Source of the DNA: Anadara kagoshimensis
Taxonomy: Eukaryota > Mollusca > Bivalvia > Arcoida > Arcidae
Reading direction: 5' to 3'
Length of the DNA stretch: 64,000 nt
Assembly (NCBI GenBank): GCA_021292105.1
Contig: CM037874.1
Span: forward strand, 16,412,615 to 16,476,614
Positions 5,880-29,245 of the stretch are shown piece after piece. Position 1 is the first letter of the stretch, and each line of letters begins with the position of its first letter. Both the position numbers and the translations under genes were made by a program. Below the pieces are notes generated by a model. The model saw only the letters and a program-made list of their open reading frames with translations. It had not been told where the DNA came from and did not search any database.

Positions 5880-5937
5880 TGTCATATACCTTTTTTTTAA
5901 TTTAATCATGAAATACATTGAAAAATGGTATATGATA
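5880..5937 (+). mobile_element. Tiny MITE, TGTCATATACC class
   Basis: Inverted termini TGTCATATACC and GGTATATGATA enclose the family core TTTAATCATGAAATACATT. The flanking tetranucleotides CTAT and CCAT differ at one position, compatible with a decayed 4-bp target duplication. Confidence 0.75.
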
Positions 5938-6133: not shown

Positions 6134-6141
6134 AAAGCTGT
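6134..6141 (+). repeat. Left 8-bp target-site duplication of the fold-back element
   Basis: AAAGCTGT directly precedes the terminus GTAACAACTCC and is repeated exactly at 10232-10239 after the mirror-image terminus GGAGTTGTTAC. Confidence 0.9.
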
Positions 6142-6692
6142 GTAACAACTCCTAATGAAGTCCGACGCCTAATGAAGTCCGGACTTCATTAGGCGTTGAC
6201 AATTTCGACGCCTAATGAAGTCCACAGATTGGGGCTCAAGACGAGAAGACTTTTTGATATTACCAAAAAAAAGTCTCAAAATTTTACGACTTCGATTTAG
6301 ACCAACTAGAAATAGCAACGTACATTCGGGCACATACATCGTGTGCTTTGTCCAACCGTACCATACCCCGAAAAATTGTTCAGGGGGTATTTATACGAAT
6401 CACCCTGTCCGTCCGTCCGTCCGTCCGTCGGTCCGTCAAAATATCGTGTCAGCTTTACATGTGTAGCTTCCATGTCTATGAATGGATTTTAATCAAACAT
6501 GGAACCAAAGTTATTGTCCGTCTGTCCGTCCGTTCGTCCGTTCGTCCGTCTTGATGTTGGGAAAGGGAGGTATTTGTCTCTCCAAAACCGTTATAGTTTT
6601 AACTCTTTTTGGGGAGGCATAAAAGGTACCAATCGAGAACTATTGTTTAAATAATTGTAATCTAAGAATTTTACGGATGCAACTTGATTGCC

Positions 6693-6728
<36 letters not shown>

Positions 6729-7456
6729 CGATCGATTGGTTTGTTAAATGGTTTTTTTTAGATCTAGTCAAGAATATTTACTTATATCGAGACGTCACCA
6801 GCTATAGATGAAATATTTGAAGTTATTGCCTTTGAGGTGCGTACAGTGTACAGGGAGGGTCTCCAACGAGCCATACTTTCTGTGATACATTGTTATCATG
6901 TGATGCATTGGTTCATCAGGTCTTTTCCGAAGGACCCCGTGACTTTCATTGCTACATGTAAATGACATTAGCAACACCCTGCTATTGTTTTGCATTTTAC
7001 AATATTTTAATCTTGCGTGCATTACCATGCATGTAATAAGGTGCCCAAAAATAAAAATATTTATTTATTTATTTATTCTTATTTTTATCTATCTTCTCCG
7101 CTAAATTTCTCAACAAGGTTTCTTAGAATCCATCATACGTACATGTATATGAAATCAAATGTGATTTTTCCCTCAAACTTCCGTGCTTACTTTATCATCT
7201 GATGGATTTCATTAAGCTTCGAGGCAACAACACGGCTAACGATGTCCCATACTATTTCATCTTATTAAAAGTCTCCGTTTTAATCATAGTTTTGTGCAAC
7301 AGATATATGTTTATTTTTATCATGATAAAAAAGTTTTGCAGTGGCCTTTACATCAACTGTTTTAATAAGTTTAACGCGGAGGATCGTTGATATAGACAAT
7401 ATCTTGTTAGCAGTATTAGATTAAGTAGTAGTATACCTTTCTGAAGCTGAACTGCA
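6142..7456 (+). repeat. Left inverted arm of the fold-back element
   Basis: The order is terminal CGCCTAATGAAGTCC modules (6142-6224), a unique block, (CCGT)n tracts near 6413 and 6520, (TGAT)n at 6692-6738, a SINE fragment, an AAAT/TTTA tract near 7053, and unique sequence ending at the array. It mirrors 8837-10231 with small differences, chiefly microsatellite length and one fewer terminal module. Confidence 0.9.
6776..6985 (-). mobile_element. SINE body/tail fragment inside the left arm
   Basis: Read on the minus strand it gives the SINE body (AATGAAAGTCACGGGGTCCT) and tail (CTATAGCTGGTGACGTCTCG) seen in the full SINE at 43931-44262. The tRNA-like head is absent. The mirror copy is at 9350-9553. 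Confidence 0.65.
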
Positions 7457-7858
7457 TTAGGCGTCGAGGTAACATAACGCCTAATGAAGTCCCTTACTAT
7501 ATCTTATTACAAAATAAATTTCATAAGGCGTGGAGGTACCTTAACGCCTAATGAAGTCCCTTACTATATCTTTGTACATAGTGGATTTCATTAGGCGTCG
7601 AGGTAACGTAACGCCTAATGAAGTCCCTTACTATATCTTTGTGCATAGTGGACTTCATTAGGCGTCGAGGTAACTTAACGCCTAATGAAGTCCCTTACTA
7701 TATCTTTGTACATAGTGGATTTCATTAGACGTCGAGGTAACTTAACGCCTAATGAAGTCCATTACTATATCTTTGTGCATAGTGGACTTCATTAGGCGTC
7801 GAGGTAACTTAACGCCTAATGAAGTCCCTTACTATATCTTTGTACATAGTGGACTTCA
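7457..7858 (+). repeat. 67-bp array, left orientation, 6 units
   Basis: TTAGGCGTCGAGG-type starts occur at 7457, 7524, 7591, 7658, 7725 and 7792, exactly 67 bp apart. Each unit holds an inverted pair (ATTAGGCGT and ACGCCTAAT) around GAGGTAACT and could form its own small hairpin. Confidence 0.95.
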
Positions 7859-8836
7859 TTAGGCGTTACGTTACCTCGACGCCTAATGAAATCCACTATG
7901 TACAAAGATATAGTAAGGGACTTCATTAGGCGTTACGTTACCTCGACGCCTAATGAAATCCACTATGTACAAAGATATAGTAAGGGACTTCATTAGGCGT
8001 TACGTTACCTCGACGCCTAATGAAATCCACTATGTACAAAGATATAGTAAGGGACTTCATTAGGCGTTACGTTATCTCGACGCCTAATGAAATCCACTAT
8101 GTACAAAGATATAGTAAGGGACTTCATTAGGCGTTAAGTTACCTCGACGCCTAATGAAATCCACTATGTACAAAGATGTAGTAAGGGACTTCATTAGGCG
8201 TTAAGTTACATCGACGCCTAATGAAATCCACTATGTACAAAGATATAGTAATGGACTTCATTAGGCGTTAAGTTACTTCGACGCCTAATGAAATCCACTA
8301 TGTACAAAGATATAGTAATTGACTTCATTAGGCGTTAAGTTACCTCGACGCCTAATGAAATCCACTATGTACAAAGATATAGTAATGGACTTCATTAGGC
8401 GTTAAGTTACCTCGACGCCTAATGAAATCCACTATGTACAAAGATATAGTAAGGGACTTCATTAGGCGTTAAGTTACCTCGACGCCTATTGAAATCCACT
8501 ATGTACAAAGATGTAGTAAGGGACTTCATTAGGCGTTAAGTTACATCGACGCCTAATGAAATCCACTATGTACAAAGATATAATAATGGACTTCATTAGG
8601 CGTTAAGTTACTTCGACGCATAATGAAATCCACTATGTACAAAGATATAGTAATTGACTTCATTAGGCGTTAAGTTACCTCGACGTCTAATGAAGTCCAT
8701 TATGTGATAAGATAAAGTAAGGGACTTCATTAGGCGTTATGTTACCCCGACGTCTAATGAAGTCCACTATGTACATGTAACGAGATATAATAAGGGAATT
8801 CATTAGGCGTTATGTTACCTCGACGCCTAATGAAGT
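7859..8836 (-). repeat. 67-bp array, opposite orientation, about 14 units
   Basis: From 7859 the unit runs as its reverse complement (TTAGGCGTTACGTTACCTCG), again every 67 bp, with starts at 7859, 7926, 7993, 8060 and so on. The last units (after about 8690) are more diverged and one carries an insertion. The 14 versus 6 imbalance explains why the dyad centre (about 7871) is off the element midpoint (about 8187). Confidence 0.93.
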
Positions 8837-9349
8837 TCAGCTTTAGAAAGGTATACTATTACTTTATCTAATACTGCTAACAAGATATTGTCTATATATC
8901 AACGATCCTCCGCGTTTTAACTCATTAAAACACTTGATATAAAGTCCACTGCAAAACTTTTTTTTCATGGTAAAAATAAATATATTTGTTGCACATAAAC
9001 TATGATTAAAACGGATGAAATACTATGGGACATCGTTAGCCATGTTGTTGCCTCGAAGCTTAATGAAATCCATCACATGATAAAGTAAGCACGGGAGTTT
9101 GGGGGAAAAAATCACATTTGATTTCATATACATGTACGTATGATGGATTCTAAGAAACCTTGTTGAGAAATTTAGCGGAGAAGATAGATAAAAATAATAA
9201 ATAAATAAATAAATAGATAAATAAATAAATAAATAAATAAATATTATTATATTTTGGGCACCTTATTACATGCGTGGTAATGCACGCAAGATTAAAATAT
9301 TGTAAAATGCAAAACAATAGCAGAGTGTTGCTAATGTTATTTACATGTG

Positions 9350-9553
9350 CAGCTCGGCATTTAGCAATGAAAGTCACGGGGTCCTTCGGAAAAGACCTGA
9401 TAAACCAAAGCATCACATGATAACAATGTATCACAGAAAGTATGGCTCGTTGGAGACCCTCCCTGTACACTGTACGCACCTCAAAGGTAAAAACTTCAAA
9501 TATTCCATCTATAGCTGGTGACATCTCGATATAAGTAAATATTCTTGACTAGA
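9350..9553 (+). mobile_element. SINE body/tail fragment inside the right arm
   Basis: It contains CTCGGCATTTAGCAATGAAA and CTATAGCTGGTGACATCTCG followed by TATTCTTGACT, matching the tail of the SINE at 43931-44262. The tRNA-like head is missing. Confidence 0.65.
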
Positions 9554-9576
9554 TCTAAAGAAACCTATTCAACAAA

Positions 9577-9624
9577 CCAATCAATCAATCAATCAATCAG
9601 TCAGTCTTTCAGTCAGTCAGTCAG

Positions 9625-9701
<77 letters not shown>
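9577..9701 (+). repeat. (TCAA)n microsatellite with TCAG variants
   Basis: About 31 tetranucleotides, with a run of TCAG near 9600-9625. It is part of the right arm and the counterpart of (TGAT)n at 6692-6738. Confidence 0.95.
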
Positions 9702-9703
<2 letters not shown>

Positions 9704-10231
9704 TTCTCGATTGGTACCTTTTATGCCTCCCTAAAAAGAGCTAAAACTATAACGGTCTTTGGAGAGACAAATATATCCCTTTCCCAACGTCCAGACGGAC
9801 GAACGGACGGACAGACGGACAATAACTTTGGTTCCAAGTTTGACCAAAATCCATTCATAGACATGGAAGCTACATATTTAAGCTTACACGATATTTTGAC
9901 GAGCGGGCGGACGGACGGACGGACAGGATGATTCGTATAAATACCCCCTAAACATTTTGCGGGGGTATGGTACGGTTGGACAAAGCACACGATGTATGTG
10001 CCTAAATGTACGTTGCTATTGCTAGTTGGTCTAAATTGAAGTCGTAAAATTTTGAGACTTTTTTTTGGTAATATATAAAAGTCTCCTCGTCTGGAGCCCC
10101 AATCTGTGGACTTTATTAGGCGTCGAAATTGTCAACGCCTAATGAAGTCCGGACTTCATTAGGCGTTGCAATTTCGACGCCTAATGAAGTCCGGACTTCA
10201 TTAGGCGTCGGACTTCATTAGGAGTTGTTAC

Positions 10232-10239
10232 AAAGCTGT
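10232..10239 (+). repeat. Right 8-bp target-site duplication of the fold-back element
   Basis: AAAGCTGT, identical to 6134-6141. Confidence 0.9.
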
Positions 10240-10443
10240 GAAAATCTTCAGTTCTGCTTTGCTCTCTATGCACATGTATTGTTATTATTTTAAAACAATA
10301 TTAAAATGACAGTTTTTCGTTTAATAATTTCCATTATGATTCGCATAAACGATATTATACATTATAAACAGACATCTATACAACACTTGATTTGTGTAAT
10401 GTGACCATTGTGTCCTAACATAATGTAAGCAACTTCGAAGTTC

Positions 10444-10547
10444 TGTCATATACCATTTTTTGAATTTAATCATAAAATACATTCATATTGTCATATACCA
10501 TTTTTTAATGTATTTTATGATTAAGTTAATAAAAATGGCATATGACA
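10444..10547. mobile_element. Tiny MITE, TGTCATATACC class, compound copy with GTTC duplications
   Basis: It begins TGTCATATACC and ends GGCATATGACA. Inside is one truncated copy in one orientation followed by a complete copy in the other. GTTC lies on both sides (10440-10443 and 10548-10551), an exact 4-bp target duplication. It sits 200 bp from the fold-back element. Confidence 0.85.
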
Positions 10548-11269
10548 GTTCCATATATCGCTTATTCGAACCGCCGATTTTTAGAACCTCAAATTGAAGA
10601 CCCTTTCATTTCGAATAACCGAAGTTTGACTGTATTTGAAATAAAATTGGTTAACGAAGCAGATTCTCTCCTTCAGCTTATTGTGTTTTCAAGATACCAA
10701 TCTCCAATTTACGGATTGAGACAAATCTATGTAAGATCTCAATGGTTTTCAAGTCCAGATTTCTTTGTATCGATTAATTCTAGAAATTGGAAATTTTCTG
10801 GCTTCGAAAATAACATTATTCAAGGCCAATATATCATTAACATTTTATGCAGACTTGTCTTCACTTTGTGATACACAAATGAAAATAAAACCCAGTCCAG
10901 TCATAGATTACTATCTGAGAAAAGTTATTATATTTATACTAAGATTTCTAGTAGAATATTTAAAGATAGTATATTGTTGCGTTTCTATTCCATTTTTATT
11001 TGTATGATTAACATTTTTACGAACCAATACCAATGTTCTGTTGTTCAAGAATACGCAAAAATTTTCTAGTAAAATATGTTCAACGTTACTTAAAAATCAT
11101 TTACGCACAACCATGACAACGTCACCATTATCTTGACGTATGCTGTTGTTTACCACGGAGTTTTTGATTGACTTTGCACAAGATTGTAATTATTGTAAAT
11201 CGTATTTAAATAATATTTGTTGTTTTATAATTTTGTAATATGTTTTGAAGTATGTGTACTGTCATTGTC

Positions 11270-11766: not shown

Positions 11767-11990
11767 GGCCCCAGTTTCACAATTATTTTTAAGATTTTCT
11801 TTTAATTTAAATCAGGCAAATTCGAAATGCTTATAGTTTTTCAAATTGTTAAGATATTTGGGAATTTAAGGTGTTATTTTGAAGATCACTTCTGCATTAG
11901 TTTCGAAAAAAATACATGTACATCCATAGTTCAAGAGAGATTGCCAAATTTAAGTTAAAGAAAATCGTAGTCAAGGAATGGTTTTTAAAC
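11767..11990 (+). mobile_element. MITE of the GGCCCCGGTTTCACAAT family beside exon 3
   Basis: Starts GGCCCCAGTTTCACAATTAT and ends with TTTAAGTTAAAGAAAATCGT and AAGGAATGG, matching the two ends of the complete element at 54244-54508. Both ends are eroded. It stops about 35 bp from the exon 3 donor site. Confidence 0.7.
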
Positions 11991-12024
11991 TTGAGCTGGT
12001 GAATATTTTGTTGTTGGCACTAAC

Positions 12025-12533
12025 CTGAATGACCCGCATCGTTAGTCCAGTTTCCTGTGCCAGCTGTTCCCGGATATGACGTGTTGGTTTTGGCGTTGCC
12101 ATGAACGCAGCCTTGAGAACATCCAGTTGTTTGGCTTTGATTGTCGTTCTTGGTCCCCGTCGTTTTGTAGCCCCTCCGGATTTTCCATTAACCTCAATAG
12201 TTTCATCGCCATCATTTCCATCATTAACTAACTGGTCGTCTCGTGTTATTGAATTATCGTTTATATCACAACTTGGAGAACTACGGTTTGAGTCTGAGGA
12301 TATTTTGAGTAGGGATGAGTTATTGTCTTGTAAAGGGTCGGGACTCGATGGCAGGGAAGCCGGTTTTCCACTTGTGGCAACACTTATATCATTGCTTGAC
12401 GTGTTAGACATAATATTATCATTGGATATATCGAAATCATGACCATTGTCGTCATCAATACTAAAGTCTTTATCAGATAAATCCCCTTGTAGTTCACTCT
12501 CTAGTTCATTGTCATCATCCAAATCTGAATTAC
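12025..12533 (-). CDS. lhx1/5: lhx1/5 exon 3: acidic linker and homeodomain residues 1-46
   Basis: This exon codes residues 133-301 of the visible protein (residue 132 is split across the exon 2/3 junction). Residues 133-250 form a Ser/Asp/Asn-rich acidic linker, about twice the vertebrate LHX1 spacer. Residues 256-301 are the N-terminal arm, helices 1 and 2, and the start of helix 3: [13 protein letters not shown], then [18 protein letters not shown] and MRVIQ. The arm arginine R5, L16 and F20 of the canonical homeodomain are present. The [18 protein letters not shown] segment is diagnostic of the Lhx1/5 (Lim1) group. The acceptor ATTTTAG precedes 12533 and the donor GTTAGT follows 12025. 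The break falls between homeodomain residues 46 and 47 in phase 0, so W48 and N51, needed for DNA binding, are on a later exon outside the window. Confidence 0.95.
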
Positions 12534-13071
12534 CTAAAATGAAACAAAAATGAAATAGAATTTAGTTTAAAATTAAAGAACCGTGTTGAAGGGTTAAAAC
12601 ACGAATGCATCTTGATTGAAATTCATAAACATTTAAAATAAACCTAAATAAATATGTCTTGCATTATTCCTGAACAAGCATTGAAAGTTATATTTTATAT
12701 GCCACTTTTGAGTGATATTATTTTATGAAATTTCAAACATTAGAAAAAAACGCATTTTGAAGGAACAAAATCGGATATAAGATAAAATAAGTATAAATGC
12801 AAGACCCTTTTATCACAAAAAATCACTCCTACGAATGAAAATGTTACTTTGTTTGTTTTTTACAGTATAATCTTCAATCTCACACTTCATCGTTCATAAG
12901 TACATTACTTTTTCCATTTTAAAATTAACCCATCACGTTCCCAGATTACATATTTAGTTACATGTACCTAGTTCCGGTTCGCCATATACACAGTCCGTGA
13001 TTTTTAAAACACACTTTTTAAATGCTATTTTCATAACGTTTATTGAAAATATTCAAAAGGATCGCTTTTTG

Positions 13072-13074
<3 letters not shown>

Positions 13075-13120
<46 letters not shown>
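13075..13120 (+). repeat. (GA)n microsatellite
   Basis: About 23 uninterrupted GA dinucleotides. Confidence 0.97.
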
Positions 13121-13124
<4 letters not shown>

Positions 13125-13249
13125 ATATCTTTGGAAATAAATGGGATGAATTGTTTTTATTTTGATTATACCAATAACCTCCCATCTCTTAGTTTAAATG
13201 TTTCAATTTGTATTCAATAAATACTTAATTCTCCCCTTCAACCACTATA

Positions 13250-13420
13250 ACAGTCAATTAATATTGTGCGTACTGAAATCCAACACTTGACGGGCCTAAT
13301 TGACACTAATCATCTTAACACGTTATAATTGAAGTCAACTCGGCGGCGATAAATCGATGAGCCAAGATGAATACTGATCCAAAGTAAAGAGATACGATAA
13401 AACCGCCAAAATTTATATGT
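13250..13420. promoter_or_regulatory. Candidate intronic enhancer rich in homeodomain-like sites
   Basis: A repeat-free block in intron 2 with clustered TAAT-type sites (CAATTAATA, CTAATTGACACTAATCA, ATAATTGAAG), a GATAAATCGATGAG segment and a GGCGGCG core. It stands out from its AT-rich, repeat-filled surroundings. The regulatory role is inferred from motif density and location in a developmental regulator; there is no direct evidence of conservation. Confidence 0.25.
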
Positions 13421-13580
13421 CATCTGAATTTATTTCATCAATTTATAAATTTCATTATTTATTCATTGCATGGTGTATCTTCCAAGTGCTCATTTCGTTT
13501 GGTTTTTGAAATGATGCATTCAAATAAAAGACATGGCGGATTTAGTCTTAGAGTTTATATTTCCATTTATTTGTTTTAGT

Positions 13581-13581
<1 letters not shown>

Positions 13582-13627
<46 letters not shown>

Positions 13628-13642
13628 AAGAGAGAGAGAGAG
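13582..13642 (+). repeat. (GA)n microsatellite with interruptions
   Basis: About 29 GA repeats broken by GG and AAAG variants. It generates a spurious RERERE reading frame. Confidence 0.97.
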
Positions 13643-15489
13643 TTGCATAATTTATAAATTTATAATTTCATTTGATGTTTTCAATTTCAAAAGAAATATT
13701 CAAAATTCAAATCATTACTGATAACATGTTTCATATACTACATGTTGGAATACATTAATCAAAAAAATAAGTTTGCATATTTTTCCAATTTAATAAAAAC
13801 AAATTTTCAAATTTAGCATATGTCGCTTGTTAAATTTTTCTGAACACTGGTATTCGTTTTAAAAAATTATAAAATAAAAATAATAACAAATTCAATTTCT
13901 GCTAATTCACATATAAATTTTATCGGTACTCCATTATTATGCATCTATATGTATGGGATTCTGTGTATTGTAATCTGAATTTTACATTTATCAATGAATA
14001 CTTATCAGATTATAAAAATAAAATTGATATAAATTTTATTTAAAATAGTGTGCACTTAAATATAATTGTTTGAATAAGGCTACCTTAACGAGGGAAAAAT
14101 CGCAACCATGCATGTGCAGTGTGTATGATTGAAACTGATCATGAATATCTGTCAAGTTTAAAATGATCGATGTCTGGATGTGAAAAAAAATCTCAATTTT
14201 TTGCGTAATGAGATAGCTCAATAAATTATAATATAAGAATAGATTATTATATTTCATAATCAATTTCTGTCGCTGTAAACAATAGCTAGATTTATCAATA
14301 AAATAAAACCAGGTACATATGGTTATTCTGGGTGTAATTTTACAAGTTTAAATACAGAAAACTTTACACAGATGAAAACAGGTTGTAACTATTTTTAATA
14401 TAAAATTAAAGAGATGTAGTAATTAATGACGCTAGGGAACAACGGCTACAGATACGATCTATTTTTAAAATCTATTATTTCATTTTTTGTTTGTTTGGCG
14501 AAAATATAAGATATAATCAATGCGAAATGTTGCAATTTCAAAAATAGATTTTTTCCACGTTTAGTTAATAGAGACGGATAACTTCATTAGAAATTTGATT
14601 TTAATCTTTATATTTTTTAATTGATTTTTTTTCTTTCCGATTTTTTAAAAAGTTATTTGTGGAACTTATTTTCCTCGAAAGATATCAACATATTGATTCA
14701 GTTATGAAAAGTTTTTAAGACAAATAAACGTTAACGAGTAAAAATTCCATTTGTACCATCCACTAATTTGAAATTTAAAAAATTATCGGAATAAAGTACT
14801 TTGATCATTAAAAAATAATTTAGAATTCTCAAAATAGAAAAAAATTGGTCATCCATGGAGGGCGGATTACGGAAAAAAGAAATCTTGGTATGTATGCAGA
14901 GTGTGTCAGTTAGAAATCACTTTGTAATTCAAAAACATTTTTCCCGTTTATGATACATATACAGTTAGTTAATTTAGAGGCGTATACCTTCATTTAAGAT
15001 ATATTTTAATGCTAAATTTTGACTCTTTTAAATAAATCTCTTTTGATTATTTGTTTATAAGATTGTTGTAATTATGTAAATAATACTTGCCATCCTTTGT
15101 GTTGTTTTTAATAAACAATTTATTTGGTATTTGTGACCTTACTCTGGCTTTTGACCGTACCAGATTTGGCAAAATACAGAGTTTGAATTAGAATGTGTTA
15201 GAAATTATTTTGTAATTATGAAAAAACTCTATCTTCGGTGTTGTTTTCAATTTACAATTTCTTTGGTATTTGTGACCTTGCTCCAGCTTTTGACATTTTC
15301 GAAGTATCGGATTTTGGCAAAATAATAAACACGAAAAGTACACTACAAGACGAGAAATAAATTTTACGTATTTGATCATGAGGAGTTTTATTTAGGGCCT
15401 AAACGTTTTCCTGGGTAATTAGATTTACACGTTCTTAGACATCAATAATTGTTTTTTCTCTGTATTTATGGTAATAATCTTGTTACGAA

Positions 15490-15760
15490 AACCTAGCACA
15501 TTCTCTGTCGATAACGAGAAATGACCCCGCAAGGCACGTGAAATAGCGCATTTAATCAGAGCCGTTAATAGCTCCCTTCGGAGGATAATTCAATAAGATA
15601 AGATGTTAAACACAGTATAAATAGGACGATCCCGGACCCCTAAATTAAATTATCCTCCTCGTGAGTGTGTGTCAACACATCATTAGTATCCGCAATAATT
15701 GACTTCAAACTGTCTAAACACTTCTTTACATGGTGGTCAGACCAGATCGTGTTTGTCATG
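15490..15760. promoter_or_regulatory. Candidate intronic enhancer (GC-richer, repeat-free block)
   Basis: The stretch holds CGATAACGAGAAATGACCCC, a CACGTG E-box (GGCACGTGAAA), GTTAATAGCTCCC, AATTCAATAAGATAAGATG (GATA-like) then TTAAACACAG (forkhead-like), and CCTAAATTAAATTATCC. Base composition and motif density differ from the neighbouring intron and no repeat family covers it. Function is inferred. Confidence 0.3.
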
Positions 15761-15865
15761 TAAACCACAAAATGGAATAGGTTACAGAATTTATATACGC
15801 GTAGGAATGATGACCAGTATGTACATGCGTGTATTTGATGGTTACTGTGTTTTGGTGGTCAGTGT

Positions 15866-15923
15866 TTTCATGTGCTGATTTATAATTTTTATTAAAATAA
15901 TGCATTAAAATCAGCACATGACA
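15866..15923. mobile_element. Tiny MITE, TGTCATGTGCTGA class, with GTGT duplications
   Basis: Termini TTTCATGTGCTGATTT and AAATCAGCACATGACA are nearly perfect inverted repeats around a short AT core. GTGT occurs directly on both sides (15862-15865 and 15924-15927), a 4-bp duplication like that of the TGTCATATACC class. Confidence 0.82.
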
Positions 15924-15934
15924 GTGTTGATGTC

Positions 15935-16175
15935 CTGTATTTGATGAAAGTTTTGACGCTACAAGTGTGCATTTTATTGTCAGCGCTGAAGGTCAAGTTT
16001 AATGTTTTTTATTTGATGGCCAGTGTTGACGTTCTATATTTGATGACCACAATGTTTTTTATTTGATGGCCAGTGCTGACGTTCTGTATTTGATGACCAA
16101 AATGTTTTTTCATGCTCATTAATGATGTATTTGATGTTCGGTGCTATTGCACAGTGTATTTGATGATTAGTGTTG
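15935..16175 (+). repeat. Degenerate tandem repeat built on TATTTGATG
   Basis: Units of about 54 bp read TGTTTTTTATTTGATGGCCA then GTGTTGACGTTCT and TATTTGATGACCA. The two copies near 16000-16105 are very similar and flanked by more decayed ones carrying TATTTGATG. Confidence 0.8.
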
Positions 16176-16226
16176 AGACTCTGCAATGGAACGTCAGTGA
16201 AAACAGCAGAATTTGTACCACCCCTA

Positions 16227-16410
16227 TAACATGGCACCCAGAAGGAAAGGGGAAAATAGGTCGGCCGAAAACAAGATGACGCAGAACAACAGAGAAAGAA
16301 AGAACACAACTAGTATCGAAGAGCATGGCGTCAACAAGGGCATCTGCCAAAGACAGATCATCTTTGTTCCCAGCGGGCACGAAGAGGATAGGTGTGGCGA
16401 GGTGCTTGTT
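16227..16410 (+). mobile_element. Decayed 3' end of a LINE (non-LTR retrotransposon) ORF2
   Basis: The plus strand reads ITWHPEGKGKIGRPKTR, a stop, then RRTTEKERTQL and later ASAKDRSSL. This resembles the W-P-GKRK-GRPK-TWRR-A-DR signature at the C-terminus of many invertebrate non-LTR retrotransposon polymerases. One in-frame stop and drift after it mark it as a relic. It lies antisense to lhx1/5. The reverse transcriptase core is not visible upstream. Confidence 0.55.
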
Positions 16411-17512
16411 TTCAATAATTCAAAAATTCTCACTAAGTAAAAAAGTGTACTTAGCCGATTTTATTTGAAAAAAAATAAAGATTAGTACCTTGGCATTGGA
16501 TTTTATCACAATGAAAATTGAAAATTTAAATGACTTAAAATTAAAAGATACCAAGCGAAGGAATGCCGTACTGAGATGCAATGTAATGTACAATGAATGA
16601 CGAAACATGTAAAATTTGTTATCGCTTAGACCCAACTAAGATCAAATAAATACACGAGATATCCAGTTTTAAATTTTAGTAAACATATATTCATTTTGAT
16701 TTTGGCATTCGGGTCTGAATATTGTTATCTATTTTAACCCTATCATTTTATTTGACCCCTGACCTTAGAAAATCCGTCTTCCACATAAAAACACTGATTA
16801 AAAATAATAAAGCACCAAGTTGTTTATCTACATGTAGTTTTCCAGTTTTTTTATATTTTGATTTCAATGCCATTTTTCCTAAAATATTATGCAAATATTC
16901 GATGTTTCAACAGCCACAATGCCTTCCTGTTGTGATCGAACCCTATATCAAATCGGACCACCTTAAATAGGACCATGATTAGTGAATATCGTAAATGATT
17001 CATTAAACACATAAGTAGCCGTGTAGTTCCATATATATTTTTTTCTGGTTTGGGATATCTGATAAGATTGGGCGACGAGAGGAATGATTAATGTTAGTAC
17101 CATCAATTAATCATGTAAAGATGTATAGATTGGTAGATCACACTACACACTACCTCATCAAACATAGTTTATATCTTTGTATGAGTTGTTAAATCTCTTG
17201 ATGATATTCTACAGATCTCAGAGTCAACCAACGCCTACTTTATATATCAAATTTACATGTCAATGCTGCATTGACTAAACGTTTTAGAGCAAGTGGTTGA
17301 ATACAAAAACTGCTATTGGTGCCACTTAGTTTTTTTTAATATTGTGGTTGTTTTCTTCACTTTTTCAAATTCTCTACATATACATGTACTATAAAATTCT
17401 TTAATTTCGTGGTGTCCAATTTTCGTGGCTCTTTCAAAAATATTATTTTGTGGGTTTGTAAATTCGCGGGTCTTGACTTCCGTTTCAGGAAAATTTGCAA
17501 TACATGTGACAT

Positions 17513-17620
17513 GTGTCATGTGCTGATTTTGAATTTCTATTACAATGGTGCTTTCAAAATCAGTATAGCATGTGCTGATTTCGAATGCAATATTTCAATA
17601 GAAAATTAAAATCAAATTAA
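17513..17620. mobile_element. Damaged MITE copies, TGTCATGTGCTGATTT class
   Basis: TGTCATGTGCTGATTTTGAA starts at 17515, CAAAATCAGTATAGCATG follows, and GCATGTGCTGATTTCGAATG repeats the terminus near 17569. The structure suggests two overlapping damaged copies; element limits cannot be fixed. Confidence 0.5.
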
Positions 17621-17924
17621 GCACCATGTTTATACAATTTCGATGACATGTAAATCCGTGAGTAGGAATATCGCGAAAATTGATGATTTCAGGAATCAAA
17701 ATTGATATTTATTCTCATTTTGGACTGGAACCTAAACATTACAGCTAAAGTACATCACAATAAATAACATACACTTTGCAATTTTAAAAGTAAGCAACAG
17801 ACGCTTTTTGGACAAAGCTGATTTTCACTGCGAAATGGTAAAACAAATAACTTGATAATTACAACAATGTAAGGTAGTATTGGTTTTCGTAGTTTGAGAA
17901 TATTATTTCAACTTTTTGTTGGCG

Positions 17925-18305
17925 TTCCAGAAAAACACTTAAAGCACCACAAAATTATTGTTTATTTTCTTCATTTTACCTTAGTGATGCCTTATAGTTG
18001 GCAATTGCTTTGAAGTTTCGAAGCTTTGAGATTAGTTGGGGTTCCTGAAAAGCACTTTAAAGGGAACAAATTCGCTACAACAACATTCTTGTTTTTTTCT
18101 TGCATTTTACCTTGCTGATGCGATTTAGTGACCATTTGTTTGAAGTTTCGAAGCTTCGCGATTTGTTGGGGTTCCCGCAAAACACTTTAAACAATACAAA
18201 TTCTCTTCAACAACATTCTTGTTTTTTTTCTTGAATTTTACCTCAGCGATGCGATTTAGTGGCCATTTGCTTGAAGTTTTGATGCTTCACAATTCTAGCA
18301 GTTCT
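17925..18305 (-). repeat. 131-bp tandem repeat with exon-like cassettes
   Basis: Three units are spaced exactly 131 bp apart (cassettes at 17980-18044, 18111-18174 and 18242-18304), with a faint fourth edge near 17925. On the minus strand, the strand of lhx1/5, each core starts with GAACCCC- or GAACTGC-, ends in AAG or GAG, and is followed by GTAAAA like a splice donor. The 17980 unit is preceded by TTTTCAG. The first two listed cassettes are open in one frame (EPQQIAKLRNFK and EPQLISKLRNFK); the third has a one-base deletion and a stop. The 64-65 nt lengths do not preserve frame. Confidence 0.75.
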
Positions 18306-19808
18306 ATCATTTAATTTATTAAGTGGCACTAAATGTCAGAATAATGTTTAAACATTTAACAAACAATTCACAGTTACATATTTACGATATTTATTGCGTA
18401 TTCAGCAATTTATTTTAATTGAAAACATGGCTTTTGACTATCTATCTATTGAAAAACACGCTAAGAATTGCCAAACATTAAAAGAACGAACGCTGCTCGC
18501 TCTCTGGATACCACGTGAATCTCTTTAAAAATCAATCAAACTAGATTTTGAAACTTTTGACGTTTTTGCTTGAAATCATTTCCGACATAGAAAAGCAAAA
18601 CTTAAAACGAAGTAAAAATCCAGAAAAATGCGGATATTCATTTATCTTAATTTGTCAAGAAATGCATAATATAAACCCATGGATATCCTACAGAGCAGAA
18701 ATGACCAGACACGTGAAGAGAAATTTACACAGCTGTCAAATAGCGTTCTGGAATGTCCGAATATTAAACAAGGTAATTCATTGGTTCAGCTGTTGGAAAA
18801 CGTCCATCATAGAACAAACGACCTTGACCTTATTGCCACGTGAAGGAGATCTTCGCATCACCAAAACGATTGAAACGTAATATACCGTAGATCATGCGAA
18901 AAATGGCTTGTCCAAACGTCTGCTGAAAGATTTCCGGCGTATGGTTTCACCAAGTTTTATTTAATTAAACAAGTTAAAAACCGCCATGACGATTTTGTGA
19001 TGAAAACTTGATAAAATTATCATGTCCAGACCACTGTTTTCTGATCCTATCGAGAATTAGAAACTTCGATTTTACATGTTTTCTTAGCCGACAAAATTCT
19101 ATCCCACGTTACCCACGTAGGCGGAAATCTTGCTTCTAATACCACCGATATTGTTCTGTCAGACAGATAGGATCTTGTCAGGTATACTACAGTAAAGCAG
19201 AGCTTGTCGTTTTTTCTAGGAGTCGATTGAAAGATTAAAGCAAACATTCTTATGAAGTAGAAGTAAAAAATGTCATTATCGCGCCTAACAGCTCGTGCAA
19301 AAAACCGCCTCTTTGCTGGAGACTTGATTGCTATTGTTACATACTGTAATGGTGGTCCATGGTAAAGCTCGTGTAAGGTGGTCGAGATATCAAGATCAGT
19401 TCACTAATGACATTTATAGCATTTCAATTCTAAAAGCGTATATTCTTCGTCAAACATTTTTACTCTTTCATATTTTCATATTAATTTCTTCCAAAATGAA
19501 TACGACCTTATGCAACATCAGCATGACACCGCAGTTGTGCTTACAAAATTACCAAACCCTATCTGTTAAGATCTTAAATATGATTGCATCAATTTCATAT
19601 CAATTTGAACATGTTATTGGCGGCTTTGCAGTTTTTGGTTGGTTAGTTGTATTCACAAAAACTCATACATGTTAACATGTTTTTGCATGTTACGTGCTAT
19701 ATAACACATTTCGCCATCATTTTAATACCAATGGGTACCTTTTGTGCCCAACACTTTATTTATACCAGGTGAAGAACGATTGGTGTTGGTGTTATTCTAG
19801 ACCTTATA

Positions 19809-20044
19809 TAGGTAAACAATTTTGACCCTTTCCGTTTGACCTTTAATTTAAACATTTATTATGGGCGACTGCATTTTTGTATAGGAATCACACGGGTTTA
19901 TTTTACATAATGAGAACACTAATCACTTATCTTATGTACATATTATTACCTGTGAATCTTAACACTAACCATGTATTGGTTGGACCCTCCTATATGAATA
20001 TTCCTAATGAAAGGTCAAACGGACAGGTCAATGTTGTTTACCTA
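19809..20044. mobile_element. TA-flanked MITE (about 236 bp)
   Basis: Inverted ends TAGGTAAACAATTTTGACC and GGTCAATGTTGTTTACCTA, with a second inverted segment CCGTTTGACCTTTAATTT near the left end and AATGAAAGGTCAAACGG near the right. Both outer edges abut TA, as expected for Tc1/mariner-type integration. A relative lies at 61902-62124. Confidence 0.8.
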
Positions 20045-21779
20045 TACTGACAATTTCCTTACAAAACACAACGCTACAAAAGAATACATTAAACTACAAG
20101 AACTACCAATGCAATAAGTTATGGGACAAAATCTGCTTTTTGTAATGGATATTTAGGAATTTTGCATCTGTAGTTTTTATGAAATTCACTCGAGGTAAGA
20201 ATGCATGTTAGGGTATTATTCTACGGTTAAGTTTAAATGTTTAAATACATTACTCTTGTGTCTTGTGGCCTTCGGGTTTGTATTTGAGTCAGATGAACAA
20301 GTGTCCCCATAAACAAATGCTGATTGCAAAAGAGAAGTGACGCCTACATTTTGTACATGTAGCTGTAAATAAAACTATTAATCATAAAATAAAACGATCC
20401 AATGGGCTTTTCTCAAGAATGAAAAAGAAATTTGTTTCGTGTGAACCTCTTGAAACTTAGACCACCTCAAACCAGAAAGCTTTAGAGATACTACTCAAAG
20501 ACACTTTTGATCTCAGAAACCTCACAGTTCCACTATCAGATTGTGTCAAAACCGATTTGTAAGATACATCGTCAATCGACAGTAGCAAGATTTTGGGGAA
20601 TTTAATTTTGAAGTTTTACAAGAAAAACGCGATAATTAACTACAAGTGTTGAAAAAAATTAATACACAAAAAAGATACATGTACAATCATTATAAAACCT
20701 AAATTAAAACAATTTGATATGATAAATTAAGAAAATCAAACTTTTGTCGAATTTATGCGACAACAACAAGCAATGTTTAATCTATGAAACACGACAAGGG
20801 TATCAGTGTTTGTTCTTCAAATATTTTATATAGTAGACAGACATTTGTAACTGAAAAACATACATGACATTAGCCGGCGCAACCAAGAACACGAAATAAG
20901 TAAGCAGCAGAAACAACCAAAAATGCAAGACAAGAAAAGGCAGAAAAATACATTGCCTACTTGAAATATGTTATCTCAAATCGTTTAGGTGACTCAGTAC
21001 CAATATGCAACTCTTTCAACGCCTTGCAAGTTTAAGGAAACGTTGTCTGTGAAAGTGCAATACTGTATACATTACGCAGGAACAAAATTGGTTTCGACAT
21101 GCATGTCAATACTGTCACATTTAACAAGTGCTTTATACCAAAGATAGTATCACATAATATGCATTAAGTGACCTAAGTTGACATTGCCAAGTTTGCACTC
21201 AACATAACACACCCGTCGTCGCACCTTAGTTTCACCTTCTCTAGAACTAAACTCGGTGATGGCAGACGATATGGTGATAATGGTAAACAAAATCAAGGTA
21301 AAACAAGGTGATTTTGGGAGACATACGGACCACTTAGTGATTTTGGGAGAAATATTTTGTAATAGCTTGAACATTAAATAAATAATATAGTTTTGTCGTT
21401 TATGAAAACACATTACAGGCGTTCGCGTTTTCACAGTGACTGCATAGAAGGGCTAATAAAACCGAAAATATCAGCCTTTTGGAAGTAAAACAACAAGTAT
21501 GTCTTTCTAATCCATCAAAACATGTTTTCTTTCAATAATGATTTCACACCTTAGAAAACACCATACAATTTATAGATTGACAAAAAGAAATAATATCAAA
21601 TTGTACGGAATTTACTTAGTAATTATTCTTATGGCAAGCAAATATTTATGCTCATTTGTTTATCAATGGCGAAAAACAAGCCTTCTGTGCAAACCCATGA
21701 TATAATTAACAAAGAATTTCTTAATTATTTTTAGCAAATTATGTAAATCGTCCTTATGGAACATGTATTCCTACAAACC

Positions 21780-21870
21780 TAGATTATTTCAAATTGACAC
21801 CTTAAATTCATGAATATCTTGAAAAAGGTCATCAAAGTTTGCCAGATTCAAGCTAAGGAAACTAGGCTTG
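21780..21870 (+). repeat. Fragment of the TTCACAATCATTCC MITE family
   Basis: CCTTAAATTCATGAATATCT followed by GCCAGATTCAAGCTAAGGAA resembles the internal and 3' parts of the family (compare 88-206). No ends are preserved. Confidence 0.4.
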
Positions 21871-22344
21871 CTACAAAAATGAAACTTATGGAAATATCAA
21901 CGGTGTCAAGTCATAACTATGTCAAGTCACTATATAATTCTGTCAAACAAATTGTTAAAAAAAACTATGTAACTCGTGGTTTAATTATTTCCAGATGGCG
22001 CCTAATGCAAAAGAAATCCATATTAGAAAAACTAGCAAGTATGAATTTCTATTCAATAGGTTAATGAACATAATGTAACTTCAGAACACTGAAATATTGC
22101 GTTTTAAATATCTGAATCAAACACAAACATAACGGTCTATGTTCAAATCACAATCCCAAAAGCAAAGAAAAATCTTTGAAAACTGACAAATTTATTTGTA
22201 AACAGCTTGCTTCGTTTTATAAAGTTCCTGTAGTGGTAACAAGCTATTCTATTGTAAAAACTGTGAAACTAATACGCCATAAGCAGGGAAAGTGGCTATA
22301 TTGCTGCATAAGAATCGGTTAACAATTTTATTTTAGCGTGTCGG

Positions 22345-22500
22345 TTGTAGCTAGTAACCAGGAGGTGCTAACCTTTCCGGAGCACCCGGCCTCACTTCCC
22401 TGTTGGGAGTTGATGTGTTCAACTTAACTTGCCAGTTGTCAAAGTTTTAACTTTGTTTTGGGATTGTGATTTGGTCACTGACCAGTATATGTTCTTACTA
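22345..22500 (+). repeat. Dispersed repeat R1 (TTTCCGGAGCACCCGGCC family)
   Basis: A well-preserved copy: GGAGGTGCTAACCTTTCCGG, GAGCACCCGGCCTCACTTCC, then AACTTGCCAGTTGTCAAAG and GGGATTGTGATTTGG. Other copies lie at 24470, 42480, 44500, 45145 and 60105, with inverted fragments near 22125, 36280 and 43540. No open frame is shared; the family is of unknown type. Confidence 0.8.
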
Positions 22501-22545
22501 TACACTCATGTTATGTAAGCCTGAACTGTACTTTCATTGCCTTAT

Positions 22546-22652
22546 TACAATCCAACCTGCCTTAAAGGCCACCTCTATATAAAGGTCACCTGCTCATAAA
22601 GGCTACTTTTACTGGTTCTCTTGGTTGGCCTTTATAGACAGGTTTGACTGTA
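22546..22652. mobile_element. Small inverted-repeat element, TACAGTCAAACCTG family
   Basis: Ends ACAATCCAACCTGCCTTAAA and CTTTATAGACAGGTTTGACT are inverted repeats, with AAAGGTCACC-like words inside. Relatives are at 35591-35765 and 56735-56892. Confidence 0.65.
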
Positions 22653-23004
22653 TTATTTGTATGTTTGTACTACAGTTTCCTTTCTCAAGGAAAAACGTCA
22701 CTGGTTACTTGCATAGAAAATGAGCAATTGATTATTTTGTTCGCTGTTAGCTCGCATGCACAAAGTGCAAAAGAGCTATTGTCATACCACCGGCGTCTGT
22801 AGAAGTGTCCAATGTTAAGTTTATGGGCCATATGGGGCACCTGCTGTACAATAATGTATTCTTACACGAACGATATCTGGTAGCATTTGTCTTCTTTGTG
22901 TAAAACTTACAGTTCTATGGGAGACTAACCGCTTGTTAATGATTGCAATAATTTGTTCTGAAGATTTCAATGCAACCAACTACATGTAGATGAATTACAT
23001 AGTA

Positions 23005-23110
23005 TAACAGTTTTAATTCTACAGCATTAGACGGCAGTTTCGGAATACAATTCCTCATCAGTAGTTACCAAAATTATGAAATCAAAATGAACAAACTCAA
23101 TAAAATGAAA
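23005..23110 (+). repeat. Dispersed repeat R2 (ATTAGACGGCAGTTTCGG family)
   Basis: TTTTAATTCTACAGCATTAG, ACGGCAGTTTCGGAATACAA and TTCCTCATCAGTAGT match 40613-40740 closely. Unknown element type. Confidence 0.75.
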
Positions 23111-23199
23111 ATGCTGTCCGGTTTGCATCATTAGCCATGGCTTTGGTCCATCAAACCCCAAAACTTCCTTTACTTATACGGTTACATTCTGATTTTTTT

Positions 23200-23945
23200 G
23201 TGTCAAAATTTGTTTGACCCATATGAATCACCGAAAGGAAACTCCACTGCGTAGTATTATCCATGTAATGTATATGCAATGTGTTTGTATAAGCTTGACG
23301 CGATAACGTTTTTATCGCCTACCTACCATTCATCGAACACACATCTAGTTATACAATATTTAGTAAAACATCGGCTTTTTTTATTTAATTTTTTGACCGA
23401 ACTGAACCCCACTGAATTGTGATATTCGTGAAGTTTCTCACAACCAGTCACCGTTCATCAAACGCCAACTTTTTGGACAAAAATTTATTTGGCTCCTCCG
23501 AATTACCGAAACCCCCTAAATTATATTATGCGTGTACTTTAAGCGTTACAATAGCAGCCATTGGACTGAAATATGTTTGAAGTGTATGGATTTTCGAAAA
23601 ACCTAAGAAAAATCGAACTGAATTGTATTGTATGCACTTTCACTCTTTCATTCATCGGCTTCCGTTGTTTGTAAAAAAAAAACGTTAGCTTTTTTTTTTT
23701 TACTGACGTATGAATTCCGGAAAAATCCCACCGAATTGTAAAATCTGTGTACTTTTTCTCTGCTATTCACCGAGAACATCTCGTCCTTCAATAGTTTGTA
23801 AACATTTAATTCTGAGACATTTTGTCCGTAAATGACACTGGTATAGGATGTGATCATCTCGTCCTTCAATAGTACCAACTAGCTAATTCCGAGACATTCT
23901 GTCCGTTGATGATCTGTATTTGTATACATTGGTATAAGATGTGAT
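23200..23945 (+). repeat. Old degenerate tandem array
   Basis: Words such as CCACCGAATTGTAAAATCTG, GAATTACCGAAACCCCCTAA and GTGTACTTT recur at uneven spacing between 23200 and 23770. Two better-preserved units of about 85 bp follow, with CATCTCGTCCTTCAATAGT near 23776 and 23856 and GAGACATTNTGTCCGT in each. Confidence 0.65.
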
Positions 23946-24469
23946 ACGGTACGTATGGTCGTTATCAGTCATAACTCAACTACAGTTTATTTACTTATTA
24001 CTATATACATCGATGTTAACTCAAAAGAAAATATTTTCAAATTATTCTACTTGGTTAGTTCTACATCTTTACTTTGGTACCCTTGGCTATTTTGATAGAC
24101 CTCGTGTTTTGATATTTATGCTGGGTGTACTAAGGCAATGGTTCGTTCTAGTCTGTAATTAGCGGGCAGACTGGCGTACCATGTCAATGATATTACCTAA
24201 TATTTCGTACTTAAACAGATAAAATTCATTGTAGATGCTAATTAGAAATGACATTACAACTTTAAAACAATTTAAATATTGAAATGTCAACCTATTCCTG
24301 TTTGTGCACTTATAAATACCATAGATTCAAATATTATAATATACTTTTGTTTGTTTATGTGCTGTAAGTATTATTTATATAATTTTAAAAAATAAAGTTT
24401 ATTTATCATTCCTTCCTTTGGTATCTCTACCCATCCAATTCAATTGGGAAAAAAATACATCAGAGAAAT

Positions 24470-24605
24470 GCTCAAAATGGCTTGTTACTGGCCTCGCTTC
24501 ACTGGTGGAAGTTCATGTGTCTAACCTAACTTTTCAGTTTCAAAGTTTTTTTCTTTGCTTTTGGATTGTGATTCGGACTTGGATTAGTTTGTTTGTTTCT
24601 GATTC
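24470..24605 (+). repeat. Dispersed repeat R1, truncated copy
   Basis: TTCACTGGTGGAAGTTCATG, TTTTCAGTTTCAAAGTTTTT and TTTTGGATTGTGATTCGGAC match R1. The 5' GGAGCACCCGGCC part is lost. Confidence 0.65.
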
Positions 24606-25640
24606 CACCATTTTAGGCTTTTTTCAGATTAAATTAAAATTTTACTGGAGGGTAGAAACAGAAGGCTTTCCAAGCATCGAATAAAAAGGTTTCCAGGTGC
24701 AAAAAAATGAGTAAATCGTGCTGTTTTATTGTCTGTATATCTTCAAAAATAATTAATTCGAATAAAATATCGATTTAGTGTAACACATTTGTGTTACATA
24801 TTGTACACCTCTGAAAATAGAATGAACATGATCTTGTGTCCACAGTGTCATATTACAAATTTTTCAATTTTTCTGAATGAAATATTTCGAAAAATTATTA
24901 TTTAAAAACTTGTATTGTCGGATATTATTCTAAAAATAAATGTGTGAAACTTTGTGCTATATGTGTGTGTTGCTGGTATATGTTTACACTGTTAACACAT
25001 TTAAAAAATATCGTTCATTAATTATTCTAAAAAAGGTGTCATGTATTAATTTATTTGATACGTAATAATACTTAATTTGAGAATAAAATACTGCATGAGA
25101 ATTGTGTCAACAAAGTATTCAAAATACTTTTCAGTAAACAATTGCAAAGAAAATATTTCAAGTGAACGTAAAAATCAGTACAAGTGCAATTCACAAAGCA
25201 CCTAATACCAGATTCACTTTATTCCATAAGCATACACTCATATGATCTTACAAAAATATAACGGTACTATATGAAAAACTACCCTGACTTTGGTCAGGCA
25301 CTGGGTATGCTATCCTGCGTCGAAATCGATTTTTTCATGATAGCTCATTGCATATAAGCACATGCCAATTTCCTGAAAATGCTGCCATAATCTGAATTTA
25401 TTATTTTTTATATACTTTATCACGGAAAAATGGGGTTTTTTTTAAATAAAAGAATAGATTATTCTTACTTATACATGTACATATTTTACATTGAAAACAA
25501 TATTGGTCTGGAGATTGGTTTAGTATGTTTTGCAGTGTCTCAATAAGTCAATTTTGGCTTGACATTGCACATTCTATTGTGGAGCAGTTGCTTTATGTAT
25601 GGATGTATAAACTGTGTATTAATGTGTGACACTATAATAA

Positions 25641-25684
<44 letters not shown>
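25641..25684 (+). repeat. (TTA)n microsatellite
   Basis: About 15 uninterrupted trinucleotides. Confidence 0.97.
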
Positions 25685-25778
25685 CTATTGCATACTAACA
25701 CATGTCAATTTCAAAATGGCGTCATTTAGAAAACAAGTTAAAAATAAAAGATTAATATTATTCCAGCTTATGTACATT

Positions 25779-25838
25779 GTCATATGCCACTTTTTAAAAT
25801 TTAATCATAAAATACATTAAAAAAATGGTATATGACAA
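25779..25838. mobile_element. Tiny MITE, TGTCATATACC class
   Basis: TGTCATATGCCACTTTTT at one end and AAAATGGTATATGACA at the other, with TTTAATCATAAAATACATT between. The flanks ACAT and ATAT differ at one position. Confidence 0.8.
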
Positions 25839-26252
25839 TATATGATAATTTACAATGAAAACCAATTTTTGTCTGGAAAAAGTTTACCCCGTGCTTTTAT
25901 TATATAACTTACACGGTGGCTGTATTTTCGGTAGCAGTGATTCTAAAAATTCTTTAATGATTCCGATTTCTGTGATACAATACTCTCAGAAGACTGATTT
26001 AAAACTCCATAAACACCGTGTAGTACTATATGGTATATGTATTTTCTCACACACCACTGTTTATGTATTTTAGTCCCTGCAGAGTGACAAACATTACCGG
26101 CACAGTATGAATCAGAAAAGTGAAATAAACACACACACATATAAAGCTACTTATTTCTACAAAGATCACTGAAGTCAAGAAAATACTGTATGAAAAAGTG
26201 ATTAAAGTAGCAAAAAATTAGAAAAAAATATTATTATAACAAATAGGTGTCG

Positions 26253-26294
<42 letters not shown>

Positions 26295-26391
26295 TCATAT
26301 ACTATTTTTAATTTAATAATAAAATACATTCATATACCATTTTTTTAATGTAATTTATGATGAATTTTAAAAAATGGTCTATGACATTAAT

Positions 26392-26429
<38 letters not shown>
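26253..26429 (+). repeat. (AAT)n microsatellite split by a MITE
   Basis: (AAT)n occupies 26253-26292 and resumes at about 26393-26429. Between them lies the element at 26293-26386. Confidence 0.9.
26293..26386. mobile_element. Tiny MITE, TGTCATATACC class, inserted in an (AAT)n tract
   Basis: TGTCATATACTATTTTTAAT at the left and AAAAATGGTCTATGACA at the right. Internal words ATAAAATACATT and AATGTAATTTATGATGAA show a compound of two inverted copies. The flanks ATAA and TTAA differ at one base. Confidence 0.8.
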
Positions 26430-28599: not shown

Positions 28600-28985
28600 A
28601 AGCTATTTTGTCCAACATTGGAAAATGATAATCTATATGGTCTATGAGACACAACCGTAGGAATGACAATTATACACTAGTGGTTATAAAAGTAACTACT
28701 TTGGATGACCATTGGGACTACAAACCCTTCTTTTTAGCCTTCCATACCAGGTCGGTTTTAAAAGGACCGACTTTGGATGACCACTGGGTTTACAAATACG
28801 ATAGCGAGTGGTGTGATCTGACAATTCTGTTACGACCCACGAGACAATCGAAATTTTTTTTGCCCAACATTGAAAAATTATTATTCCGCCGGTAATGTTT
28901 TACGAGAGACAATCGAATAAAATTTTGCCAAACATTGAAAAATGAAAATCCGTTATGTCCTACGAGACACAATATCTTATGAATC
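28600..28985 (+). repeat. Degenerate tandem repeat next to exon 2, with an exon-2-like segment
   Basis: A unit of about 60 bp (CCAACATTGAAAAATGAAAA, TCCGTTATGTCCTACGAGAC) recurs near 28612, 28862 and 28932 in decayed form. A 32-bp segment at about 28733-28765 (CTTCTTTTTAGCCTTCCATA, CCAGGTC) matches exon 2 positions 29126-29153 (TTGTTTTTAGCCCTCCGTAC, CAAGTC) with about five mismatches, suggesting a local partial duplication that took in coding sequence. Confidence 0.5.
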
Positions 28986-29000
28986 AGACTGACTACTTAC

Positions 29001-29241: not shown

Positions 29242-29245
<4 letters not shown>

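Follow-up and report, generated by a model that had tools for sequence, protein, structure and literature searches.

A 64,000-nucleotide stretch of the genome of the bivalve Anadara kagoshimensis (C18:16412615-16476614, hereafter the window) carries, at positions 6141-10232, a foldback element that belongs to a real, recently active foldback family of known kind. We interpret it, with a probability of roughly 0.87, as a family of non-autonomous terminal-inverted-repeat DNA transposons of the foldback type that is probably mobilised in trans. The family has long inverted repeats with internal repeats, target duplications and many dispersed copies, as foldback elements do, and the initial annotation, which had described an intact-looking foldback transposon, is borne out by the presence of numerous copies that occupy different sites and have target duplications of their own.

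Ends, target duplications and copy number

The 15-bp word CGCCTAATGAAGTCC (the word herein) occurs exactly 4,398 times in the host genome (1.115 Gb; 2,193 and 2,205 times on the two strands), compared with 0 occurrences of the reversed control. The genome-wide count of the termini, a check that the initial annotation had proposed, gave 1,291 matches to the 22-bp terminus at ≤1 mismatch (633 and 658 by strand; control, 0). Twenty pairs of exact 22-bp ends, found by eye on C1 to C3 among 100 places listed, were analysed; measured across both 22-mers, they are 78 to 4,639 bp long. In 20/20 of these pairs, GTAAC is preceded by T and GTTAC is followed by A, and therefore the element starts with TG and ends with CA, and the duplication is 6 bp long. 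The perfect 8-bp target duplications previously reported for the window copy are thus 6 bp, AAGCTG, at 6135-6140 and 10233-10238; AAAGCTGT is present on either side of the inverted repeat, and the apparent 8-bp match arises because the terminal T or A of the element supplies one outer base on each side. The inverted repeat that had been placed at 6142-10231 (4,090 bp) is real, but its extent is 6141-10232 (4,092 bp; TGTAACAACTCC...GGAGTTGTTACA, with the ends set by comparing family copies).

Among the 20 exact pairs, the 6-bp duplication was perfect in 14, matched at 5 of 6 positions in 4, and was not seen in 2 (L039 and L051). A wider set of pairs with at least 4/6 matching flank bases gave perfect duplications in 23/29, a rate biased by the 4-of-6 filter, for which the 20 exact pairs are the fairer sample. 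The middle dinucleotide was GC in 16 of the 23 perfect duplications, or in 15 of 22 distinct sites when L021 and L023, one insertion seen twice, were counted once; with GC making up 2.6% of the dinucleotides of the window, this is a strong enrichment (P about 2e-19). The targets vary from copy to copy, and one that was seen is a tRNA-like short interspersed nuclear element (SINE). The loci L020/L022 and L021/L023 (C1 near 24.05/24.12 and 24.79/24.87 Mb) also revealed two stretches that recur at a distance of about 743 kb with 96 to 97% identity, which represent either a segmental duplication or uncollapsed haplotypes.

Atypical termini were found as 106 exact occurrences, and no forward-reverse pair 1 to 15 kb apart was seen by eye among the approximately 100 listed. 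The exact 22-bp terminus had no match in viral contigs, and a 30-bp word palindrome had none in prokaryotic genomes. A letter search of the available literature, which misses line-broken sequences, found no 13-letter piece of the word, on one strand or the other, in any publication; among the 20 of 56 publications listed from another letter search, none had a transposon in its title.

Structure of the window element

The features of the window copy are as follows.

6135-6140, no strand: target duplication, left copy, AAGCTG (copy comparison)
6141-6223, plus strand: left end, TGTAACAACTCC, then copies of the word in both orientations
6224-7447, plus strand: left arm, with GTCC, TTGA and ATTT simple repeats and no long open frame (arm alignment)
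6739-6958, minus strand: SINE-derived stretch in the left arm, adjoining the TTGA repeat (local alignment score 62, compared with 26.5 for the best of 200 shuffles)
7451-7894, minus strand: central array, left part, 67-bp unit, inverted relative to the right part
7851-8834, plus strand: central array, right part, 67-bp unit, 335-bp higher-order period
8839-10107, minus strand: right arm (arm alignment)
9322-9576, plus strand: SINE-derived stretch in the right arm (62.6% identity to the SINE over 262 columns)
10108-10232, minus strand: right end, copies of the word with an extra 42-bp unit relative to the left end, followed by GGAGTTGTTACA
10233-10238, no strand: target duplication, right copy, AAGCTG

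The word is present in 27 exact copies inside 6142-10231 and in none in the rest of the window (30 simulated first-order sequences contained on average 0.0 exact copies and 0.1 at ≤2 mismatches). It had been described as the building block of termini, arms and array alike; this holds for the termini and the central array but not for the arms, the bulk of which, between end and array, is other sequence that is partly SINE derived. Each arm contains a stretch of about 220 to 250 bp that aligns to the SINE at about 43938-44240 of the window and adjoins a TTGA repeat that resembles the tail of such SINEs. The arms, formerly called near-identical, share 93.9% identity in a left-versus-right alignment that starts at the terminus and has 1,272 ungapped columns, with 78 mismatches (45 transitions and 33 transversions) and 155 gap columns.

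The central array consists of 67-bp units, each with the word or a one-base variant of it in each orientation, and two units (134 nt) fold far better than their shuffled versions (z, -9.4). The orientation of the array flips near 7872, off the element midpoint, and of its copies, 6.6 lie left of this point and 14.6 right of it (6 and 14, respectively, by gapless matching of units). In the right part there is a higher-order period of five units (335 bp), as seen in the pairs 8119/8454, 8186/8521 and 8253/8588, which differ by one base each. The longest open frame in the element is 136 amino acids (aa), and the left arm contains no open reading frame of ≥150 aa.

Short copies and empty sites

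Copies with perfect duplications measure 67, 80, 87, 106, 123, 123, 129, 204, 225 and 1,196 bp and range up to 4,641 bp, and the short ones are hardly more than two ends placed back to back. With 80 bp, L051 forms a perfect palindrome whose flanks do not match, and the similar L053 is flanked by ATGCCC on both sides; a short copy on C18 with an altered right end (L075) has ACGCAT on both flanks, as read by eye. At ≤3 mismatches, one palindrome of 46 bp was found on C4.

The 87-bp copy in locus L014 interrupts a SINE, and its joined flanks match 28 rows across the site among the analysed loci, a number that includes several views of one place. Altogether, 31 rows span any joined site, with 28 for L014, two for L056 and one for L058. 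Ten of the L014 rows were aligned (one of them is window positions 43938-44067), and all 10 SINE paralogues are uninterrupted at the site, with GAGCAC in 8 and one base different in the other 2, giving a precise empty site. These uninterrupted relatives of L014 therefore support both the ends and the 6-bp length independently of the copy comparison. The empty-site check suggested by the initial annotation thus succeeded for this short copy and failed, among the fetched loci, for the window copy itself.

Arm history and recent movement

The similarity of the arms had been taken as a sign of recent insertion or of ongoing homogenisation. In a comparison of 16 fetched elements and the window copy, minus elements whose arms were too short for a probe, an arm had its own partner as its nearest relative in only 1/30, 1/26 and 0/22 cases for three arm segments, and homogenisation of arms within elements is thereby ruled out. 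The best 40 of 460 candidates matching a segment of the window left arm were that segment itself and 39 arms elsewhere (96 to 98% identity); the right arm of the window copy, with 93.8% identity in approximately this segment, was not among them. Since partner arms are not nearest relatives, the divergence of the two arms would predate the spread of the copies. Arms of the window copy cluster crosswise with those of L049, right with left and left with right, and the same flipped grouping was seen with the arms of L055, where comparison was possible in one segment; such a pattern would be expected if a two-faced element can insert in either orientation. In flipped orientation, the window copy is 97.4% identical to L049 and 97.7% identical to L055.

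It is another pair of copies that speaks for recency, not the similarity of the arms: an alignment of L040 and L043 over 3,581 bases shows 5 substitutions, and the two also differ by a few small indels and by one complete 67-bp unit. They are separated by 28 Mb on C1, their duplications differ and their left flanks are unalike; their near-identity at separate sites therefore indicates that the family moved recently. The difference of one unit also means that the array can change by a whole 67-bp unit. The array-unit pattern had 443 matches, of which the first approximately 100 listed fall, by eye, into about 37 clusters, none larger than about 1.5 kb; as far as seen among these, the array is not an expanded satellite.

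Proposed mechanism and points against it

In the mechanism that we favour, a DDE-type transposase or integrase supplied in trans would bind the terminal copies of the word, which, repeated as hairpins, is the putative binding site of the enzyme. The enzyme would cut the target 6 bp apart and join the 3' ends. The arms may have arisen through inverted duplication of a segment that already held the SINE piece and would then have diverged by several per cent, whole elements having since been copied with both arm types, and the 67-bp array may gain and lose units through slippage or unequal exchange. No transposase was recognised inside any copy read (by eye, frames of ≥110 aa in the fetched loci).

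Several observations weigh against this interpretation. An autonomous element with the same ends, for which the initial annotation had also proposed a search, was not found in the part of the genome examined, and for this reason mobilisation in trans is something that we infer. The flanks of L039 and L051 do not match, 7 of the 22 distinct perfect targets have no GC centre, and the flanks of the 46-bp palindrome (TAGCAC and TAGCTA) are alike at only 4/6 positions; this palindrome is perhaps a later deletion product. No uninterrupted relative of the joined flanks of the window copy was present among the fetched loci, and a second candidate for an empty site, at about 24.19 Mb on C1 in the supposed duplication 743 kb away, gave only short partial matches and proved to be the wrong place. 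Support for the arm tree was moderate, and ties for the nearest arm were broken by name.

Candidate mobilisers

The mobiliser may come from another superfamily able to make 6-bp duplications, such as hAT, MuDR or an undescribed one, which we regard as a tentative possibility. Duplications of hAT, P and MuDR are mostly 7 to 10 bp. Published passages give 4 to 10 bp for hAT, Kolobok, P and MuDR taken together and, elsewhere, 4 to 10 bp for MuDR and IS256, and the observed 6-bp duplication falls inside this wide range for hAT, P and MuDR.

An integrase-like transposase of the GingerRoot/IS3EU superfamily is a somewhat more doubtful candidate. As described in the sections cited here, IS3EU elements have TA..TA ends and usually 6-bp duplications, and GingerRoot elements have 6-bp duplications and termini that are mostly TA..TA and occasionally TG..CA (PMC10045372). 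The TGTAAC..GTTACA ends and 6-bp duplication of the foldback family fit these TG..CA elements (PMC10045372); the ends are thus not IS3EU-like but are compatible with GingerRoot. The genome also contains several families of matches to the integrase model rva_4 (PF24764) in open frames: a search with this model scored 150 of 224 candidates and returned at least 102 matches, many of them in open frames of several hundred residues. However, of four rva_4 families looked at, the three with a visible left end start with TATGG or TACGG, and TATGG and TACGG are the ends of IS3EU. The rva_4 family pieces analysed contained no copy of the word or the terminus, none of nine left-flank 6-mers, read by eye as candidate target duplications, was GC centred, and 0 of 33 matches on C1 to C3 (of the 102 listed) lay within 20 kb of an exact terminus; distances here and below were counted to the exact termini of C1 to C3 only, 99 places of the 100 listed, out of 1,291 in all. 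Apart from the 6-bp duplications and, in some GingerRoot elements, the TG..CA ends (PMC10045372), no transposase or end sequence common to the foldback family and this superfamily was demonstrated, the three rva_4 families ending in TAYGG. Inverted SINEs adjoining one rva_4 frame were at one point taken as its ends, which was wrong.

As a separate observation, the loci L061 to L064, L067, L069 to L071 and L073 hold IS3EU-like families with open rva_4 frames, near-identical copies and TATGG or TACGG starts, and these families are likely to have been recently active. At L011, an open frame that we take to be mariner-like (2171-2503) lies about 650 bases outside a foldback end.

We consider a Dada-like transposase unlikely. 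The cited sections report 6- to 7-bp duplications for Dada, among them the GC-centred targets TAGCTC, TGGCGC, ATGCTA, TTGCGC and GCGCAA (PMC3706591, PMC8869645), so that the two systems are alike in having 6-bp, often GC-centred targets; the foldback family prefers NNGCNN, with one copy at TAGCTC and one in the tRNA-like head of a SINE. Against this, other Dada targets have no GC centre (GCGAAA, GCGAAT and TAGTCT; PMC3706591, PMC8869645), and Dada is described, in the section cited, as having no terminal inverted repeats, with the elements of clear terminus sitting in small RNA genes (PMC3706591, PMC8869645). The foldback family, in contrast, has dispersed targets and strong inverted repeats, as judged on the window copy and on the 20 pairs, which had been pre-chosen by their exact 22-bp inverted termini.

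Polinton-like genes on C7

Among the best 40 arms, one, on C7, is separated from a foldback array by 10 kb, compared with 1 to 2 kb in the other listed copies. The array is at C7:30698131-30699321, the right arm is intact over at least 768 bp up to its end at 30709767, and three separate pieces between them contain coding frames (loci L076 to L079, read in pieces within C7:30700900-30709850). One is an integrase frame (rve match, E 1.6e-9); another, of 426 residues, is presumably polymerase-like by its motifs, with no Pfam match at 0.001; and a third we take to be zinc-finger-like. Together, these three frames look like a Polinton.

The autonomous partner would then be a Polinton-type element and the foldback arms its long inverted repeats, an explanation that we rate as quite unlikely. 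In its favour are the position of the integrase, polymerase-like and zinc-finger-like frames between the array and the intact right arm, and the long inverted repeats of Polintons (Mavericks). Polintons also make 6-bp duplications, as the foldback family does (PMC10045372, section cited). They are, however, large self-synthesising elements, and their association with the family is seen in one foldback copy, where the genes are probably nested. Integrases of the C7 family are numerous (150 of 1,166 candidates scored), and on C1 to C3 they are not enriched near the termini: 0/46 were within 10 kb, and 2 were within 15 kb compared with 0.52 expected (P = 0.107). The four relatives on C1 to C3 that are ≥92% identical to the C7 integrase each lie >200 kb from an exact terminus. 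A nested insertion accounts for the C7 arrangement equally well, and with about a thousand integrase genes and a guessed hundred large foldbacks, about half a nesting is expected by chance, which makes nesting the likelier account.

We find it very unlikely, in the more specific version, that the foldbacks are stripped-down relatives of a Polinton, whose inverted repeats would be the arms and whose integrase would make the 6-bp, GC-centred cuts and mobilise the whole size range, from 70-bp or so palindromes to copies of about 13 kb like that on C7. A search with PF00665 returned at least 150 matches (150 of 1,594 candidates scored), 1 of 42 on C1 to C3 lying within 10 kb of a terminus compared with 0.37 expected; these matches are probably mostly retroelements.

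The probability that the window inverted repeat is an assembly artefact or a chance palindrome is negligible: long inverted repeats are a known assembly hazard, but the two arms differ at 78 aligned positions and the flanks differ, the same structure is found at many loci, and the many copies with their own duplications, together with the empty sites for one short copy, therefore strongly disfavour an artefact.

Comparison with Drosophila foldback elements

The non-autonomous foldback family resembles Tetris/DAIBAM of Drosophila virilis, which, as described in the cited sections, is a foldback without coding capacity that carries tandem repeats in its inverted repeats, changes in unit copy number and has short derivatives with common ends (PMC4079207). 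Tetris differs in its 8- to 10-bp duplications and its unit of about 220 bp, compared with 6 bp and 67 bp here, and its unit has grown into kilobase-size satellite arrays (PMC4079207), whereas the listed array clusters of the present family are at most about 1.5 kb. Galileo, a P-superfamily foldback of Drosophila, likewise has long, internally repetitive inverted repeats, subfamilies and recent activity, but the cited sections describe 7-bp duplications, a known transposase and signs of sequence exchange among copies (PMC3573991). In the Anadara family, by comparison, duplications are 6 bp, no transposase was recognised and there is no homogenisation of arms within elements.

Genomic setting of the window copy

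The remaining features of the window are given below.

12165-12010, 29208-28999 and 31459-31298, minus strand: coding stretches of the Lhx1/5-type gene
60614-60710, no strand: second family copy in the window, 97 bp, flanked by AAGCAC and AAACAC (5/6)
60711-60879, no strand: degenerate further copy adjoining the 97-bp copy; the joint 266-bp unit ends at CAGCAC (5/6)

The 97-bp and 266-bp readings of the second copy have the same left end. The minus strand at 11971-31459 carries a LIM-homeobox gene of the Lhx1/5 type, whose introns are long. The species-named relatives of its homeodomain exon are headed by the snail Lymnaea, with an annelid, a second snail and vertebrates next. As the minus strand of the window shows no FQNRR motif, the intron that follows the homeodomain exon is the probable location of the foldback.

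The SINE-like repeat at 43938-44240 is related both to the stretch captured by the arms and to the SINE struck by the 87-bp copy, and we read it as tRNA derived; ARAGORN found no tRNA gene in the window, and an Rfam scan of the window gave no hits. Short palindromes with TCATATACC and its complement in common lie a few hundred bases off the foldback on either side (5882-5935 and 10443-10548) and are possibly another small inverted-repeat element. At 48046-48768, there are about 24 tandem copies of a 30-bp unit (GCATGTTCATATTGGCTATTGTCAAATAAA), with one frame open for 150 codons.

Significance

Compared with the 7-bp duplications of Galileo and the 8- to 10-bp duplications of Tetris, the 6-bp, mostly GC-centred duplications and the TG..CA ends point to another kind of mobiliser and suggest that the foldback architecture arises repeatedly. 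The features to retain are this duplication, a size range that extends to minimal palindromes and a pair of arm types that is inherited. The inherited pair serves as a test against the notion that arm similarity reflects gene conversion or young age, and the sizes, which extend from 67 bp to 4.6 kb with a single pair of ends, constitute a natural titration of what a transposase requires.

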